Source: a virus
Virus record (IMG/VR): IMGVR_UViG_3300046366_000026
Location: 1-29,184 of that record
Length of the DNA stretch: 29,184 bases
Strand: one strand, 5' to 3'
The stretch's first letter is position 1. Each line of letters begins with the position of its first letter. The position numbers and the translations under genes are program-made. The notes beneath the pieces were generated by a model. It did no database searches. It was not told where the DNA came from and was given only the letters and a program-made list of their open reading frames with translations. Shown here piece by piece: positions 4,404-16,747 of this stretch.

Positions 4404-4724
4404 ATGAGTGAAAATAACACTATCCTTAATCATGCTGTAAGCATCAGCCCTATAGTAGCAGGAGCTACTATAGCCAGTGTATTACAGGCAAGAGAGCCAT
4501 CTACTAAGACATGGCAGATAAGAACCTTAGACTTTATAGTAGACTCTGTTATAGGTACGTCTACTGCTTACTTCCTAGCAGGGTGGGCTACAGAGTACTT
4601 CCATCAAACTACTCCTAATGCTGTAATGGCTATTGGATTCCTATTTGGTGCTATAGGGGTTCAGTTAATCCGTTGGACTATCAAGGAAGGTTTCCCTTGG
4701 TTAGCTAAGAGATTAGGAGTATAG
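4404..4724 (+). CDS. Small membrane protein, holin candidate
   Basis: A 106-residue protein with hydrophobic segments at about residues 13-27 (ISPIVAGATIASVLQ), 42-63 and 73-90 (AVMAIGFLFGAIGVQLI), and a short C-terminal tail ending in AKRLGV. The size, two or three probable membrane spans and charged C terminus fit phage holins in general, but there is no specific family signature that I recognise. It begins 4 nt after the previous stop and is followed 3 nt later by another small membrane protein, as in holin or holin/antiholin pairs. No separate endolysin gene is adjacent. Confidence 0.42.
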   Translation: MSENNTILNHAVSISPIVAGATIASVLQAREPSTKTWQIRTLDFIVDSVIGTSTAYFLAGWATEYFHQTTPNAVMAIGFLFGAIGVQLIRWTIKEGFPWLAKRLGV

Positions 4725-4726
4725 TC

Positions 4727-4969
4727 ATGACGTACATACTTGCATTTATTTATTGGTATATGGCGGCTATACACCTAGCTGCACTACTTCACCCTAAAGT
4801 ACCCACCCATGGATTCCTTAGAACATTGGCTATTGGCTCTCTTGGTTTTATACATATTATGGTAGCCTCTACTATCCCTGTAAACATGCATGTAAGTGCA
4901 CTCCTTGGTATATTGTTGGCAGCTTTGTACACAGTACACAAAACAACAGGGGAGAACCTAAATGACTAA
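4727..4969 (+). CDS. Small membrane protein next to the holin candidate
   Basis: An 80-residue, very hydrophobic protein with about three membrane segments (roughly residues 2-21, 31-51 and 55-72) and a short polar C terminus (TGENLND). The end overlaps the portal start by 8 nt, so it is translated with the late operon. Pairing with the preceding membrane gene suggests a lysis partner (second holin or antiholin) or a membrane factor used in assembly. I recognise no family; function is open. Confidence 0.4.
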   Translation: MTYILAFIYWYMAAIHLAALLHPKVPTHGFLRTLAIGSLGFIHIMVASTIPVNMHVSALLGILLAALYTVHKTTGENLND

Positions 4970-7085
4970 GAACTTAACAGATTGGAAGGAAGAGCCTACC
5001 TTACCTCAACTTAAGAATGACTTTGAGATGTCTAGACCCAGTCATGACACTCAGATGACTAAGATTAAACGTTGGAACTCTTTAATGACGGGTTGCTTAA
5101 CACCAGTTAAAGCTACTGCTGGTAGGTCAGCTGTACAACCTAAGTTAATTAGGAAGCAAGCAGAGTGGCGATATGCTGCATTAAGTGAACCTTTGTTAGG
5201 CAGTAATAAGCTCTTCAGTATTACACCTGTAACCTTTGAAGATGCTAAGGCAGCGAAGCAGAATGAGCTGGTGATTAACTACCAGATACGAACCAAGCTT
5301 AATAGAGTTAAGTTAATAGATGAGTTAGTACACTCAGTGGTGGACGATGGTACTGCTATTGTTAGGGTAGGTTGGAAGCGTAATGTAACTAAGGTCATGG
5401 AAGAAGTACCTGTGTACTCACATAGCCCTGTAACCAGTGAACAGGAGCTAGAGATATTTAAACAAGCCCTAGAGTTATCAACCAGCAATCCAAGGGAGTT
5501 TGAAGAACATGCAACTCCTGAGCTTAAAGCCTGTGTTGAATACTACCAAGAATCTGGGGAAGCTACTTTAGCTACACAGACCAGTACCTCTAAGGTAGAA
5601 GTAGAGAAGGTACTAGAGAATAGACCTACTATTGAAATACTAAACCCAGCCAATGTATATTTAGATCCTACTTGTAATGGAGACATGGATAAAGCCCTCT
5701 TTGTAATAGTGAGCTTTGAAACTAACAAGGCAGAGTTACTTAAAGAACCTGAGCGGTATAAGAATGTTACAGATATCAACTGGGATTCATTAAGTAGTGG
5801 GTACTCTCCTAACTATGAATCCAGTCATAACTATGATGCACAGTTCAAAGACACTACGAGACGTAAGGCAATAGCCTATGAGTACTGGGGCTTCTATGAC
5901 ATTGATGGTTCAGGTAAGCTAACCCCTATTGTGGCTACTTGGGTAGATTCACACATAATCCGGATGGAACTTAATCCATATCCTGATGGTAAGTTACCTT
6001 TCATTGTTATCCCATATTTACCTGTTAAACGTAGCTTGTATGGAGAACCTGATGCAGAGCTATTAGAGGATCATCAGAAGATATCAGGAGCTATTACTAG
6101 GGGAATGATAGACCTTATGGGGTTATCTGCCAATAGTCAACGAGGTGTAGCCAATGGATTCTTAGATCCAGTGAACCATGGTAAGTTCTTCCGAGGGGAG
6201 GACTATGAATTTAATCCTAATATTCCTTCTAATAGCAGCTATATAGAACATAAGTACCCTGAGATACCTCAGAGTGCTATGTTAATGTTATCACTACAGA
6301 ACCAAGAAGCAGAGTCTTTAACTGGGGTTAAAGCCTTCAGTGGTGGTATCAGTGGTAGTTCCTATGGAGACTTAGCAGCAGGTGTTAGAGGGGCACTAGA
6401 TGCTTCTAGTAAGCGTGAGATGGCAATACTCCGACGGATAGCTCAAGGTATATCTGAGATGGGAAGTAAGATAGTAGCCATGAATAGTATGTTCCTTAGT
6501 GATAAGGAAGTTATCCGAGTAACCAATGAGGAGTTCGTTGATATTAACCGAGAGGAGCTCTATGGTAACTTTGACTTGGACGTAGATATTAGTACTGCTG
6601 AGGTAGATGCAGCTAAGAGCCAAGACTTAGCCTATATGCTACAAACCTTAGGTAATAACATGGACTTTAGTGTTACCAAGATGATTCTTGCTAATATTGC
6701 TAGGTTAAAACGTATGCCTGAGTTAGCAGATAAGTTAGATAAGTTTGAGCCACAGGTAAGTGAAGAACAGCAACAGTTACAGGCATTAGAGTTACAGAAA
6801 GCTCAGTTAGAAGTAACTAAGCTTGAGAGTGAGATTGCTTATAACAATGCACGTGCTGCACATGCTGTAGCTATGCAGGAGCAGCTCCAAGTTAACACAC
6901 AGGAGCAAGTATCAGGTGTATCTCATCAACGCGCTGTAGACACGATTACAGCCCAATCTAGAGGTAATCAGAATGCTTCTATTACTAAGGCATTGACAAC
7001 TCCTACTAAGATAGACGAGAATCAGCCTAATATTGATGCAGCAATAGGGTTTAATAGCTTAATCGCTAATGGGGGAACATTATGA
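4962..7085 (+). CDS. Portal protein (head-to-tail connector)
   Basis: A 707-residue protein that would form the dodecameric ring through which DNA is packaged and ejected. The N-terminal region (RKQAEWRYAALSEPLL, about residues 65-80, then VTFEDAKAAKQNELVINYQI at about 89-108) is typical of a large class of podophage portals, as is the later VHSVVDDGTAIVRVGWKRN. The C-terminal approximately 110 residues are Q/E/A-rich and helical (about 604-660), fitting a barrel or tunnel-facing helix. Length is in the usual range for N4-like portals. The gene overlaps the neighbours on both sides (8 nt and 4 nt). TerL docks on this ring; the scaffold and capsid genes lie just downstream. Confidence 0.88.
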   Translation: MTKNLTDWKEEPTLPQLKNDFEMSRPSHDTQMTKIKRWNSLMTGCLTPVKATAGRSAVQPKLIRKQAEWRYAALSEPLLGSNKLFSITPVTFEDAKAAKQNELVINYQIRTKLNRVKLIDELVHSVVDDGTAIVRVGWKRNVTKVMEEVPVYSHSPVTSEQELEIFKQALELSTSNPREFEEHATPELKACVEYYQESGEATLATQTSTSKVEVEKVLENRPTIEILNPANVYLDPTCNGDMDKALFVIVSFETNKAELLKEPERYKNVTDINWDSLSSGYSPNYESSHNYDAQFKDTTRRKAIAYEYWGFYDIDGSGKLTPIVATWVDSHIIRMELNPYPDGKLPFIVIPYLPVKRSLYGEPDAELLEDHQKISGAITRGMIDLMGLSANSQRGVANGFLDPVNHGKFFRGEDYEFNPNIPSNSSYIEHKYPEIPQSAMLMLSLQNQEAESLTGVKAFSGGISGSSYGDLAAGVRGALDASSKREMAILRRIAQGISEMGSKIVAMNSMFLSDKEVIRVTNEEFVDINREELYGNFDLDVDISTAEVDAAKSQDLAYMLQTLGNNMDFSVTKMILANIARLKRMPELADKLDKFEPQVSEEQQQLQALELQKAQLEVTKLESEIAYNNARAAHAVAMQEQLQVNTQEQVSGVSHQRAVDTITAQSRGNQNASITKALTTPTKIDENQPNIDAAIGFNSLIANGGTL

Positions 7086-7381
7086 AAGAGTTAGAGATTT
7101 ATATAGAACTTTGTTATAAAGCTAAGGATAAGTTAGTTATATTTGACCGACTAATGAATAATGCAGACTTTAAATCATTAGTGCTTACAGACTACTTAAC
7201 CACCTATGCATTGACATGTTTAGAGAGGGCTGTTGTAGATCCAAGGTTCATGGAATCTTGTAAAGCTACAGGGTTCACTAAAGCATGGTTAACTGAGGAA
7301 CGAGCTAAGTTAGTTAATCTAATTAGTGCTATCCCTGCTGCTGAACATGACCTATTAATACTTAACCAATCAAAACTATGA
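7082..7381 (+). CDS. Small conserved-type protein between portal and scaffold
   Basis: A 99-residue helical protein without a known catalytic motif. The start FDRLMNNADFKSLVLTDYLT (about residues 21-40) and a C-terminal helix recall small phage proteins encoded between portal and scaffold genes, in which residues like 'F-x-x-L-x-x-x-x-x-F-x-x-x-V-L' are followed by an alpha-helical hairpin. It overlaps portal by 4 nt and scaffold by 4 nt, so its product is coupled to both. A role in head assembly is inferred only from its position. Confidence 0.5.
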   Translation: MKELEIYIELCYKAKDKLVIFDRLMNNADFKSLVLTDYLTTYALTCLERAVVDPRFMESCKATGFTKAWLTEERAKLVNLISAIPAAEHDLLILNQSKL

Positions 7382-8376
7382 CTGATATCTTTTCACTGAG
7401 CGAAGCTGAGTTTCTAGCACTCACACCACCCACACCCGTTAATTTGAGAGATCTTGAGAACCAAGAGGTACAAGTAGTTTCTCCTGAGCCTACTGAGGTC
7501 ATTGAGCCAGAGGAGTCCATACCTGAGGTGGAAGTGGTAGATGAAGAGCCTAAGGACTATAAAGCTCTCTATGAGGCTGTATCTCAACCCTTCCAAGCTA
7601 ATGGTACTACTATCACCTTAAATAACCCTGAGGACATGGTTAAGTTGATGCAGAAGGGTGCTGGGTACACTAAGACCATGCAGGACTTAGCCCCTAAGCG
7701 CAAGATGTTAATGATGTTGGAAGAAGACAAGATAAGTGAGCAAGACTTAACTTACTTGTTGGATTTGAATAGAAAGAACCCTGAGGCTATTAAGAAGCTC
7801 TTAGTGGATAGTAAGCTAGACATCTATGATATAGATGTAGATACCCCAGCTACTTATGTAGCACCCCCAAGTAAATATACCGACGGGTATGTAACACTAT
7901 CAACTAACCTCACTGAGTTAGGTCAGACAGCAGCAGGTGTTGCTACCTTACAGGCTATTGCCAGTGATTGGGACGATGCTAGCAAAGCACATTTAAGTAC
8001 AGCACCTCATCTAGTACATTTAATCCATGAACATAAACAATCGGGGGTATATGATCAAGTACTGGAACAGATTAATCACCATACAGCTTTAGGTAATATC
8101 CGTGCAGGTATCCCATTCATTAACTCCTATGAATATATTGCAGACTATTTAGCTAAGTCAGGTGAGTTAAAGACTAGTGTCCCTGTAGCACCACCTAAGG
8201 TAGTGCAGCGAGTAGCTGCACCCAAACCAGTTATATCAAACACAGCAGCAGCTAAGGCAGCAATGTCTTCCAAGGCAACTAGCAAAGTAGCTACTGGATA
8301 TACAGACATCATGAAGATGTCTGAAGCAGAGTTTAGAAAACTCACACCACCCAAACCAATGAGCCTAAGAGGATAA
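7378..8376 (+). CDS. Scaffold (capsid assembly) protein with duplicated terminal motif
   Basis: A 332-residue acidic protein directly before the major capsid gene. It has a Glu/Pro/Val-rich segment (residues 25-60), a helical middle, and an Ala/Lys-rich basic stretch near 270-305, as is common in scaffolds that bind coat protein through a basic C terminus. Residues 2-25 and 309-332 are copies of each other: both read TDI..xSEAEFxxLTPPxPxxLR, with 15 of 24 positions identical, at 7381-7452 and 8302-8373. The repeat may be a capsid-binding peptide displayed at both ends. The start overlaps the previous gene by 4 nt; the capsid ATG follows 5 nt after its stop. Role by synteny and composition. 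Confidence 0.7.
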   Translation: MTDIFSLSEAEFLALTPPTPVNLRDLENQEVQVVSPEPTEVIEPEESIPEVEVVDEEPKDYKALYEAVSQPFQANGTTITLNNPEDMVKLMQKGAGYTKTMQDLAPKRKMLMMLEEDKISEQDLTYLLDLNRKNPEAIKKLLVDSKLDIYDIDVDTPATYVAPPSKYTDGYVTLSTNLTELGQTAAGVATLQAIASDWDDASKAHLSTAPHLVHLIHEHKQSGVYDQVLEQINHHTALGNIRAGIPFINSYEYIADYLAKSGELKTSVPVAPPKVVQRVAAPKPVISNTAAAKAAMSSKATSKVATGYTDIMKMSEAEFRKLTPPKPMSLRG

Positions 8377-8381
8377 ACATC

Positions 8382-9620
8382 ATGACTTTCGCATATAACG
8401 CCCCTGTTGATGGGGTATCTTCAAGTATTGAGGCAGTAGAGGGTACTGCACAATTTAACTTTCAATACTGGATTAAAGATTCAGTAATTACTGCGGCTAA
8501 ACACCGCCCATTCTCAATGTTAGGTCGCCCTATTACAGTGCCCTTACATATGGGTAAACAAGTGGCTATCTATGAGTACTTACCATTCTTAGATGATCGT
8601 AATATTAATAGCCAAGGTATTGATGCTAACGGTATTACTATCGTCAATGGTAATCTTTATGGTAGCTCCCGAGACGTAGGTAATATCCTAGGTAAACTAC
8701 CTTTCCTAGGTGAGGCAGGTGGTGTAGTAAACGGTGTAGGTTTCACACGTATCACACATAAAAGTTCTTTACGTAAATTAGGTAAGCACTTCAGCTATAC
8801 CCAAGATGCTTTGAACTTTGATACAGATGAGATGTGGTTCAAGCATGTCTTACGTGAAGGTACTAACGGTGCTAATCAAGTCTCTGAGGCACTGTTACAG
8901 ATTGACCTGTTGAATGGTGCAGGTACTGTGTTGTATGCAGGTATCGCTACAAGTAAGGCTACTGTTACCGGTCAAGTAACACCAGCTGCTGGTGGTGTAC
9001 CTGAGTTACCTGCCTCCATTGTTAACTATGATAACTTCATTCGTTTAGAGCAGATCCTTACTAATGCTCAATGTCCTATTGATACCACAATTGTTAAAGG
9101 TACTGATACAGTAGATACCGTTACTCTAGATGCTGCTCGTATTATGTATGTAGGTAATGAGTTAGTACCTTTACTGCGTCGTATGAGTGATTCTCGTGGA
9201 GATGCTGTATTCATGCCAGTTAATAAGTATGCAGCTAATACTAAGGTCTTACGTGGTGAAGTAGGTCAAATTGGGCAATTTAAGATTATCCAAGTACCTG
9301 AGATGCTTCACTATGCAGGTCAAGGTGCTACTGCTTCAGCTAACGTAGGATACCGTGCTACTACTGTAGCTGGTGTCTCTAAGTATGACGTGTACCCTAT
9401 GTTAGTGGTAGGTGAAGATTCATTTGCTTCCTTAAGCTTCGTTGGCTTAGGTGGTGCAGCCAACATGAACATCATCACTAAAATGCCAGGTAAAGATACA
9501 GCAACTCTTGAAAACGATCCATATGGTCAAAAAGGATTTACATCATTCCAATGGTTTCAAGGTACATTGATCTTCCGTCCTGAACGTATTGCACTGATCT
9601 ACACAGTAGCCCCTTTATAA
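8382..9620 (+). CDS. Major capsid protein, N4-gp56 type
   Basis: A 412-residue coat protein. The N-terminal part (FQYWIKDSVITAAKHRPFSM, then PLHMGKQVAIYEYLPFLDDR) matches the pattern of the N4-gp56 major capsid family, where a helix is followed by a strand with K-x-V-x-x-x-x-Y. It has an HK97-like coat protein size. Codon use differs from the genes around it: its arginines are almost all CGT/CGC, with no AGA or AGG seen, whereas terL mostly uses AGA/AGG; this fits very high expression. It is followed at 9631-9650 by a terminator hairpin. It sits between the scaffold and a head-associated protein. Confidence 0.9.
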   Translation: MTFAYNAPVDGVSSSIEAVEGTAQFNFQYWIKDSVITAAKHRPFSMLGRPITVPLHMGKQVAIYEYLPFLDDRNINSQGIDANGITIVNGNLYGSSRDVGNILGKLPFLGEAGGVVNGVGFTRITHKSSLRKLGKHFSYTQDALNFDTDEMWFKHVLREGTNGANQVSEALLQIDLLNGAGTVLYAGIATSKATVTGQVTPAAGGVPELPASIVNYDNFIRLEQILTNAQCPIDTTIVKGTDTVDTVTLDAARIMYVGNELVPLLRRMSDSRGDAVFMPVNKYAANTKVLRGEVGQIGQFKIIQVPEMLHYAGQGATASANVGYRATTVAGVSKYDVYPMLVVGEDSFASLSFVGLGGAANMNIITKMPGKDTATLENDPYGQKGFTSFQWFQGTLIFRPERIALIYTVAPL

Positions 9621-13571: not shown

Positions 13572-14063
13572 ATGGCAGCCCAACAACCATATCAACCAGT
13601 AGATTACTCCCAAATTTGGAATGACAGTATTAGACCTATGCGCCAAGGTCTTGCTAATTTATCCTCTAATACGGCAGGCACAATAGGGGGATACGACACA
13701 AGTAAACCTCTGTTTGCTGCTATTCAGAATTACACACCATCAAATGATTACTCTGATTACAGCGTACCTGCTACTACACAGGGTGTAGTTAAAGATGCTC
13801 CCATGGATCTATCTAAGCTTAATAGTGCCATCAGTGGTATCAATACCTTAGGTCAACTCTATGGAGCATATCAAGCACAGAAGTTAGGTAATAAACAGTT
13901 TGCATTTCAAAAGGCATTAACAGAACGTAACCTAGCCAACAGCTCGTTAGACTACAACACTAGGCTTGAGAACAAGATGGCACAGAAAGCTGCTCTTGAT
14001 GGTGTAACACCTGAAGCTCAAGAAGCATATCTTAACTCTCACCGTGTTAGAGGAACTGTCTAA
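13572..14063 (+). CDS. Small internal virion protein
   Basis: A 163-residue protein with a disordered N terminus rich in Pro, Gln and Ser, and a helical part about residues 80-140 (SGINTLGQLYGAYQAQKLGN then KQFAFQKALTERNLA). The G-x-Y-x-A-x-Q-x-x-K-L and F-Q-K-x-x-x-x-R-N-L pattern is common in small ejection proteins encoded just before the large internal proteins of podophages (T7 gp14-like position). It starts 1 nt after the previous stop and overlaps the next ATG by 1 nt (TAATG). A DNA-ejection role is inferred. Confidence 0.55.
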   Translation: MAAQQPYQPVDYSQIWNDSIRPMRQGLANLSSNTAGTIGGYDTSKPLFAAIQNYTPSNDYSDYSVPATTQGVVKDAPMDLSKLNSAISGINTLGQLYGAYQAQKLGNKQFAFQKALTERNLANSSLDYNTRLENKMAQKAALDGVTPEAQEAYLNSHRVRGTV

Positions 14064-16747
14064 TGGCTACCTCTGAAAACTATAACGCTACCGCAGTACC
14101 CACCTTTAATCATGGAACTGATGGTATTAAGACAGCAGCTCTTTTATTAGATAATGCAGCTAAGGCTGCTTCAGGAGGGATTGCTGATTACAAGGCTAAC
14201 AGGACAGCTGTAGCAGATAACCTAATGCAACAGGTTCTATCTACGTACACCGATCCTAAGGTACTACAGGAGGACTTGAATACAGGTAACTTATTTAATA
14301 AAGCTCAGGTAGATCCTAATCACCTATCCAGTACACTGTTTGATGAGTTAAGTTCTAGAGTAACCGCACTTAATACTCAAAAGACTAATTCTCTTGCTAT
14401 TAGATCTACTGAAGCGACTCAGGATAGTGGCATTGCTTCTACTATTGCCGCTAATGTACTCAACACAGCAACAAGTAAAGCTTCGACAGACGCAGCTGAG
14501 AGAAATGCAGCAGAACTCCTAGTTAAGCAAGCATTATCAAGAGGTGAAGGGGATAGTCCTCAAGCACCACAACCTTTTACCCCACCAGCAATATTTCCAG
14601 TAACAGGAGAAGAACCTGCTGTAGTACCTTACGAACCTAGGAAGCAGCCAACACCAACACCGCAGATACCTAAAGTACTAGATAAACCAGTTAATACCCT
14701 TTTGAGTACTCTCCCCACTACTGCTGACGGTGCGCCTATATTTAATACGAGAGAACTTCTTAATAACCCTGTATTTATGGGGAAGGTTGATGATATTGTT
14801 CAAAGTACAGGTGCTGCACGTGATATCGTAATAAGGGCATTAGCTGACGACTTACAAAGTCAGGATACAACTAATGTAGCTAATATTACGCAACAGTTAA
14901 AAGCTAGAGTAGATACCATTAATGGCACATTTCCTACAGCTAATGAGAGAAGTAAAAGTCAACAGGACTTACGTAATAATCTATCTCCAAGAGAGAGATC
15001 TATTTTTGATAAGTTATACCCTGACTTAAATAAAACTATTGACATACCTTTTACAGCCCAACCCTCACCTAAGTCTCCTGATGGTTCAAAGATAGTTCAA
15101 GACCCCAGTGGGAAATATAGTGTAGGTACTCCAACACCTTCCTCGGATAACAAAACCTCTTCACTAAATCAATATAACAAAGGTACGGTGAAAGGGGGGT
15201 ATGTGCCTTCTAATATACCGCCTCTGGAAGAGCTTACACTGGGCAAGGTACAGGATATACAGAATCAAATACTACAGAACTACAAAGCTGCGGGAATACC
15301 TATAGAAGGTAGGTCATCAGCAGCAGGAAAATACCAAGTACTCTATGGCACACTTAAAGCTGCAATAGCTGAGGTGTATAAAGGGCAGGACATTAGTAAG
15401 ATCAAGTTTGATGCTGATGCTCAGGATAAGATCGGTGAGTATTTATACAACCAAGCTAAAGGCTCTGCTAAAACTATGGGGGCTATGTGGCAAGGGGTTA
15501 GTCCTACCAGCCCACACGCAGCTGCGTTCAGAGCAGCGTACCCTAAAGGTGTTGATTGGCAGAACACCTCATGGAAAGATGCTAGACGAATTATCTCTAG
15601 GTTTGAGAGCTCAGATGATGAAGATACTGGTACGGCTAATAATAATGTAGACCATGCAAAGCAGATAACAGTAGGTGCTAACACTGAGGTAATTAAATTA
15701 ACTAACCAAGTTGCTAGTACCCCCACCAGTACTACGATGAGTGCGTTTAACGCCGCAGCTAGTGTTACAACACCTGTAGCTCAGGTTGTTACAGATACTG
15801 TAACTAACTTGGGTGGGAGTGCTACAGATAACCCTAAAGTCTCAGCACAGATTAATAGAGCCATTGCACACGGTGCTAAGTTAGGGGTTACTATCACTCC
15901 GAAACAGGCAGGGTTATTGGTAACTGAAGCTTTTAAACCATTGAGTTATTTAGCAACTTTAGGTAAATCATATAATCCTGAAAGCACTATAGGCACTTCA
16001 GGGATAAATGATGAAACCTTAAAAACAGTGGTAGGTACATACATCTCTAATAAGGGGCTTGATCAAGCGATTATTGAGAGGAATAGTATTGATGTCGCTA
16101 CTTTACGTACACGTATAGACGCTATAACAGGACTACAGAAGGCAATAGGTGAGGCAAGGGCTCTTGGTAAAACAGAGCTAGTTAACTCGTTAACTGCACA
16201 GTTGGGGAACATGTTGCAGGTATCCCAAACACCCACAGCAAAGAAAAACCCTGACGCTACTGAAGCAATCAGCAAGATATTAACTCCTGTAGTAAAGCCT
16301 ACAAATCCAACTAATAATGAACAGATTACTACTGCCAAGCAATCTATAGCTGACATTACTCGGGAAATTGGTGGTTTACAGGACTTGGTTAAGCAGACTA
16401 ATAGTGAAAACCTTAGTGCTGAAGATAAGGTAATAGCTTTTGAAAATATTACAAGTAAAGCCAAACAGTTGGGGCAAGAGCTTCTTGCTGCACAGAGGGT
16501 AGTAAAGAACACTGTGCCTACACAACCTCCACCACCTAAACCTAAGTTAGAGGTTGCAGTAGAAGAGGCTACCCGTAAGTTTGATGAAGCTACATCTTGG
16601 TTTTCTAAGGTGAGTAGGACTCCTAATGCTACAGAAGAGGTAAAGAAATCCGCAAGATCTGCTAGAAGAGCTGCTGAGGAGGATTTACGAATAGCTAAAA
16701 CCAATGCTTCTCACGCCTCCATAAAGAATATTCTAGGCTTAAATTAA
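14063..16747 (+). CDS. Internal virion protein with lysozyme-like domain
   Basis: An 894-residue protein. The N-terminal 390 residues are Ala/Thr/Pro-rich, with proline-rich linkers (about 170-215 and near 350). Residues about 391-520 look like a lysozyme/muramidase-type domain: SSAAGKYQVLYGTLKAA (418-434), DADAQDKIGEYLYNQAKG (about 450-467) and a later W-containing segment match the A-(V/A)-G-(K/R)-Y-Q ... TL ... QD layout of phage virion-associated muramidases. The expected catalytic Glu is not clear: at residues 391-396 I read LTLGKV, where related proteins commonly have GE. The C-terminal about 350 residues are helical and basic. It probably cuts peptidoglycan during DNA entry. It lies 21 nt before the giant gene. 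Confidence 0.6.
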   Translation: MATSENYNATAVPTFNHGTDGIKTAALLLDNAAKAASGGIADYKANRTAVADNLMQQVLSTYTDPKVLQEDLNTGNLFNKAQVDPNHLSSTLFDELSSRVTALNTQKTNSLAIRSTEATQDSGIASTIAANVLNTATSKASTDAAERNAAELLVKQALSRGEGDSPQAPQPFTPPAIFPVTGEEPAVVPYEPRKQPTPTPQIPKVLDKPVNTLLSTLPTTADGAPIFNTRELLNNPVFMGKVDDIVQSTGAARDIVIRALADDLQSQDTTNVANITQQLKARVDTINGTFPTANERSKSQQDLRNNLSPRERSIFDKLYPDLNKTIDIPFTAQPSPKSPDGSKIVQDPSGKYSVGTPTPSSDNKTSSLNQYNKGTVKGGYVPSNIPPLEELTLGKVQDIQNQILQNYKAAGIPIEGRSSAAGKYQVLYGTLKAAIAEVYKGQDISKIKFDADAQDKIGEYLYNQAKGSAKTMGAMWQGVSPTSPHAAAFRAAYPKGVDWQNTSWKDARRIISRFESSDDEDTGTANNNVDHAKQITVGANTEVIKLTNQVASTPTSTTMSAFNAAASVTTPVAQVVTDTVTNLGGSATDNPKVSAQINRAIAHGAKLGVTITPKQAGLLVTEAFKPLSYLATLGKSYNPESTIGTSGINDETLKTVVGTYISNKGLDQAIIERNSIDVATLRTRIDAITGLQKAIGEARALGKTELVNSLTAQLGNMLQVSQTPTAKKNPDATEAISKILTPVVKPTNPTNNEQITTAKQSIADITREIGGLQDLVKQTNSENLSAEDKVIAFENITSKAKQLGQELLAAQRVVKNTVPTQPPPPKPKLEVAVEEATRKFDEATSWFSKVSRTPNATEEVKKSARSARRAAEEDLRIAKTNASHASIKNILGLN

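Follow-up and report, generated by a model that had tools for sequence, protein, structure and literature searches.

The window (the whole 29,184-nucleotide stretch of viral DNA analysed here) encodes a large terminase and a virion RNA polymerase of 3,251 residues, and was therefore taken to be a piece of an N4-like phage. Its head genes follow the order portal, gp58-like, scaffold-like gene and major capsid protein (MCP), with the following features at and around the scaffold-like gene:

4962–7085, + strand: portal protein (N4 gp59 family; phrog_1216)
7082–7381, + strand: gp58-like protein (phrog_2346)
7378–8376, + strand: scaffold-like protein, 332 amino acids, homologue of N4 gp57 (phrog_2120; from the open reading frame, PHROG profile and tblastn)
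7381–7452, + strand: N-terminal motif copy, residues 2–25, with the family core IFSLSEAEFLAL at residues 4–15
7453–7554, + strand: N-terminal linker, residues 26–59, acid- and Pro-rich, low model confidence
7555–8172, + strand: conserved helical core, residues 60–265 (from pLDDT and tblastn match starts)
8173–8301, + strand: C-terminal linker, residues 266–308, Ala/Pro/Lys-rich, low model confidence
8302–8373, + strand: C-terminal motif copy, residues 309–332, with the family core IMKMSEAEFRKL at residues 311–322
8382–9620, + strand: MCP (N4 gp56 family; phrog_1357), the proposed docking partner

The initial annotation had placed the scaffold gene at 7381–8373, which identifies the gene correctly and leaves out its start and stop codons, the open reading frame being 7378–8376. 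The stop codon of the gp58-like gene overlaps the start of this gene (ATGA), and five bases lie between its stop and the MCP start, making it a separate gene directly 5′ of the MCP gene. The 332-residue protein, found as an identical copy on two contigs, matches phrog_2120 over residues 44–326 (272.4 bits, E 1.3e-80), and a tblastn search with it matched 469 phage records, N4 gp57 among them, with the relatives' alignments starting at residues 59–72 among the matches listed. In 21 of 22 named phages, picked for diversity among the tblastn matches listed, a large gene (mostly named portal or gp59-like) is followed by one small gene, gp57 and an MCP-sized gene, the exception being AD45-P2, with three small genes before gp57. 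The MCP has solved relatives (9e99, 9d7z, 9d82 and 9bgn); as its alignment with the solved coat 9e99 starts at MCP residue 4, which pairs with residue 3 of 9e99, the MCP carries no visible extra N-terminal domain. Two small genes 5′ of the portal gene (window 4404–4969), the first matching holins and the second without a match, may represent a lysis cassette inside the head gene cluster. Before the polymerase, an 894-residue protein (14063–16747) matches a virion protein family at residues 13–115 only. In the Enterobacter phage SonariX, whose record of 248,734 bases is over three times as large as most others among the matches listed, the N4-like head block comprises gp57, MCP and an unnamed large gene at the portal's place.

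Residues 2–25 and 309–332 of the scaffold-like protein are identical at 15 of 24 positions, in agreement with the initial annotation that both protein ends carry the same motif, and the copies also share DNA as it had stated, with the 13-mer CTCACACCACCCA at 7420–7432 and 8341–8353. The ungapped BLOSUM62 score of copy against copy was 77, whereas neither copy scored above 20 against any other segment of the 21 window proteins. The best 14-residue match between the 35-residue ends scored 52 against 12.5 ± 4.3 in shuffled ends (z 9.3), with 0 of 200 shuffled ends reaching 52, and by z the pair's likeness ranks second of 23 family proteins, RPP1 being first.

This set of 23 proteins comprises the window protein and those of the 22 named phages, covers at least 8 subfamilies and includes both the large-genome record SonariX and AD45-P2, a phage not placed in Schitoviridae. 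C-terminal motifs were marked by eye, and for each protein the C motifs of the remaining 22 were combined into a leave-one-out profile, which was used to search the sequence outside the last 45 residues. The best match fell within the first 35 residues in all 23 proteins (2.4 expected by position alone), so that the motif, which the initial annotation had suggested seeking in related scaffolds, is present at both ends throughout this set rather than absent from the homologues. This N-terminal match exceeded shuffled N-terminal sequence at p <0.01 in 20 of the 23, with the remaining three at 0.020 (ZC08), 0.043 (AD45-P2) and 0.076 (Vib1.188.A). The two ends of one protein were alike at p 0.05 in 20 members, and were not alike at this level in Fifi287, Pollock and ZC08.

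A larger set was derived from 108 proteins, reduced to 90 (2 were cut, and 16 lacked the core pattern in a single frame) and then to 54 with a core identity <70% between members (36 dropped by dereplication at 70%), its contig set consisting of the best 80 of 508 relatives. The N copy exceeded 11 bits in 53 of these 54 proteins and the C copy likewise in 53, as scored with a profile that included the 23 proteins' own motifs, and with the C counts of the contig set biased because the set was partly fetched with the C-motif pattern itself. The two misses were Vib1.188.A (N copy, 10.7 bits) and L100 (C copy, 2.9 bits). The motif of 24 residues initially described thus holds for the window protein and shrinks in the family to a common core of about 12 residues, the tail LTPPxPxxLR occurring at both ends in this phage's protein only among the 54. 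The commonest family core is [IP]-L-x-M-S-D-E-[DE]-F-[LM]-[KN]-L, with nearly the same core residues at both ends, and its Ser together with the acid three residues later look like a helix N-cap. By eye, the N tip in the 54-protein set is often followed by one or two Pro, and the C tip often ends with Arg and a hydrophobic residue.

The N4 genome was scanned in two overlapping pieces with a profile from which N4 and Moo19 had been removed. Of all matches in its 1,003 open frames, the two ends of gp57 scored highest (33.1 and 31.7 bits), followed by one of 13.9 bits within a 34-residue frame. Among 37 stretches >12 kb, of which several are near-copies, every one had the two ends of the scaffold-like protein as its top two matches, and in the window these ends scored 24.3 and 21.6 bits, with a third match at 11.1 bits. 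Strict exclusivity to the scaffold-like protein does not hold for the motif, since the virion RNA polymerase of some relatives contains a weaker look-alike at one homologous place, 246–351 residues into the open frame. Within its frame, this site ranked first in 10 of 16 stretches, and it exceeded 11 bits in 4 of 16, a count whose underlying pattern missed two of the six polymerase loci >11 bits found in an earlier scan; scores ranged from −10.4 to 21.6 bits (the latter in L080), with 10.0 in N4 and −4.5 in the window. The stretch concerned resembles EAGGAYQQTA..IM.MS.EEL...SP.Y (L009 25129–35631, L080, L090, L036, L044 and others), and because these stretches are homologous they represent few independent events. 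The look-alike may have arisen by chance in one conserved helix, or the packaged polymerase of some relatives may have borrowed the same docking peptide. The N-terminus of the window polymerase, MQSNEEFLASL, is similar by eye and was set aside as a candidate, falling below the 11-bit listing threshold; the N4 polymerase N-terminus is unlike it.

The likeness of the two ends appears at the level of the protein. Over 54 lineages, the same codon was used at 130 of 303 shared residues against 131.4 expected from codon usage, which rules out recent gene conversion as the cause across the family, and the duplication is not a recent one, contrary to what the shared DNA could be taken to imply. In the window alone, the same codon occurs at 9 of 15 shared residues against 5.9 expected (P 0.084); conversion may have contributed slightly in this phage, where the pair is unusually alike and these 9 codons agree. 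Across the 23 proteins, the N and C copies of one protein were more similar to each other than mismatched pairs (25.2 vs 19.2, permutation p 1e-4), and their co-variation extended beyond core divergence (partial Mantel r 0.32, p 0.009). The same was observed given core divergence in the 54 proteins (partial r 0.36, p 5e-4), in the 33 members taken from contigs alone (r 0.31, p 5e-4) and in 19 lineages with <50% identity (r 0.28, p 0.028), in tests that lessen the effect of relatedness and leave some of it in place. These sequence comparisons are most simply read as selection on the protein, rather than gene conversion, maintaining the likeness of the two tips; co-variation and protein-level likeness together fit both tips binding the same partner.

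An AlphaFold2 model of the window protein, based on an alignment of 51 sequences (the window protein and 50 of the 52 relatives prepared), predicts a mainly helical protein with flexible parts and a compact core, in which the longest helix has 33 residues. In blocks of ten residues, pLDDT was 87–97 over the core (residues 61–260) and fell to 47–65 over residues 31–60 and 50–63 over residues 271–310, the linkers. Two short helical stretches with the same spacing were predicted at both tips, HHH--HHHHH at the N tip (pLDDT 72 and 80 in the first two blocks) and HHH--HHHHHH at the C tip (84 and 77 over residues 311–330), with the helix beginning just past the core Ser in each. The same tip pattern was predicted at both ends of another family member, in a read-through model of a fused scaffold and MCP (alignment of 69 of 75 prepared rows); the tip-holding blocks were at 67–80, and the output comprised confidence and secondary structure, with contacts not readable. 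No solved structure in the PDB matched the window model at E 0.001, a second-look fold comparison gave 6 of 187 chains at Z ≥2 (best 3.4), none of the six being a scaffold, and no PDB chain matched the scaffold-like protein by sequence at E up to 1. Pfam searches with four proteins gave nothing above the cut-offs. Among predicted viral proteins, 7 fold matches were found at E 0.001 or better, by name apparently of the same family.

Published virion data from relatives favour a scaffold. In N4, gp57 was not identified among the virion proteins and the LIT1 homologue was represented by 1 peptide with 3% coverage, compared with 82.7% for the coat (PMC3715699); the virion table of Moo19 does not include gp74, the gp57 homologue (PMC11654681). 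This trace or absence in virions, together with the position before the coat gene and the predicted shape, fits an internal scaffold, and the term scaffold in the initial annotation is thereby supported. The methods of the DEV paper describe a scaffolding protein being sought in the maps (PMC10925440), and the literature listings and open-licence papers examined yielded no statement of gp57 as a scaffold or of its twin ends.

Known scaffolds share several of these features. The P22 scaffold gp8 is likewise an internal scaffold encoded by a separate gene just before the coat gene, and two short helices at its C-terminal end contact the MCP N-arm within the shell (PMC9965877); unlike those of the gp57 family, its own ends are not alike (z −0.1). 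The P22 contact sets basic scaffold residues on acidic N-arm residues (PMC9965877), whereas in the gp57 family, averaged over 52 lineages, the two tips carry an acidic charge (−3.6 and −2.6) and the N-arm is mildly basic (+1.3). SPP1 gp11 is described as bivalent, with two hooks linking two independent coat subunits (PMC6813328), although its bivalence comes, by that description, from a probable dimer, whereas the gp57 chain itself has two like tips. The HK97/D3 delta domain also works from inside the shell (PMC12749128), and D3 and N4 both form T=9 shells (PMC12749128, PMC11654681); the delta domain is part of the MCP and is proteolytically removed, in contrast to the separate gene encoding gp57. 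Scaffolds of the short-tailed phages T7 (gp9) and phi29 (gp7) are also encoded beside the coat gene, but their ends show no likeness (z −1.4 and −0.9). In idea only, gp57 may be likened, by description, to CsoS2 of alpha-carboxysomes, a disordered repeat-motif scaffold that helps build an icosahedral shell, although CsoS2 is highly repetitive rather than two-tipped and serves a different shell. In T4, a short terminal peptide, the capsid targeting sequence, takes proteins into the prohead and is common to several packaged proteins, whereas the gp57 motif is strong in the scaffold-like protein and has a weak look-alike in some RNA polymerases. To our knowledge, no phage scaffold has two like docking tips on one chain.

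We consider it moderately likely that the gp57 family comprises internal scaffolds of N4-like phages rather than tape measures, and that these are bivalent, with both tips docking on one kind of coat site. In such a scaffold, two flexible arms would extend from a folded helical core, and a short helix common to both (family core MSDEDFL) would form the tip of each arm. On the inner face of the MCP, perhaps on its N-arm by analogy with P22 and SPP1, the two tips would occupy pockets of one kind. One scaffold chain, or its dimer, could then tie two or more coat subunits together during shell growth, and would be released once the shell expands and DNA enters. A more specific form of this proposal, to which we give somewhat less than an even chance, has the two tips of a single chain occupying equivalent pockets on adjacent coat subunits, so that core and arms act as a strut whose reach would contribute to curvature and thereby to the T=9 shell. 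The capsid-binding peptide and bivalent scaffold put forward in the initial annotation thus remain the best-supported reading, in that the ends are conserved, co-vary and are alike at the protein level; the binding to the coat is what we infer from these properties. Simple charge complementarity between the tips and the MCP N-arm was not supported: in the 52 of 54 lineages compared (two had no MCP in reach), N-arm charge did not correlate with N-tip charge (rho 0.07), and its correlation with C-tip charge (rho 0.52, p 7e-5, uncorrected for relatedness) was positive rather than negative.

The partners of the two tips could differ in part, as three of the 23 pairs are not alike and the N and C flanks differ. 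It is rather unlikely that the tips divide labour, with the C tip binding the coat and the N tip, of the same origin, binding the portal or packaged proteins, of which the giant virion RNA polymerase would be an example, and recruiting them to the prohead. The somewhat different flanks seen by eye, the near neighbourhood of portal and scaffold genes, and the dependence of P22 portal incorporation on its scaffold (PMC9320234) would all suit such an arrangement, but a single shared partner is indicated by the co-variation of N and C copies within a phage, which exceeds what core divergence explains, and the commonest core residues are nearly equal at both ends.

Binding of the tips to each other or to the scaffold core, which would give a lattice or a closed form and leave the coat to bind elsewhere, would also produce co-variation if the tips paired with each other or with one core site. 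The tips reached moderate pLDDT (72–84) in a partner-free model, as such binding might predict, but for a short, conserved helix such a pLDDT says little, and contacts resolved in other phages, as reported, put the scaffold end on the coat (PMC9965877, PMC12749128). We regard self-association as unlikely.

The preferred docking on the coat has also to be set against recognition of the tips by a host or phage protease that would remove the scaffold, a role that terminal, conserved peptides could serve and that the initial annotation had listed as a possible signal. We judge this very unlikely. The annotation's suggestion gained no support, as no protease appears among the PHROG match descriptions of the 21 window proteins (several of them of unknown function, and one protein without a match) or among N4 gene names; the argument is weak because many window and N4 genes are of unknown function.

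Tape measure proteins are long, mostly continuous helical rulers, and what is predicted here is a protein of 332 residues with a compact core. The description of phrog_2120 is nonetheless 'tail length tape measure protein', a label repeated in many database records, and 17 proteins listed as conserved in the family include gp57 under this name (PMC7650795). That the protein is a tail tape measure as these records state, with the motifs as end anchors of the ruler, is highly improbable given that N4-like phages are short-tailed, that the longest helix in the predicted compact core is so short, that virion analyses detected one peptide of it in LIT1 and did not identify it in N4 or Moo19, and that its gene sits between portal and MCP beside the small gp58-like gene. 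The label on phrog_2120 and on many records is probably a misannotation of a head scaffold that has spread.

How scaffolds set shell size is an open question in virus assembly, and a core gene of the N4-like family appears to encode a scaffold with two like docking tips per chain. With a core of about 12 residues per end, the motif offers short, exact targets for experiments that delete or swap the tips or test peptide binding, and the tip segments are what should be sought in prohead maps. The identity of the protein as a scaffold, if true, would correct the annotation on many records, and a bivalent scaffold on a single chain, if true, would be a new phage scaffold architecture common to the whole family now labelled as tape measure proteins.
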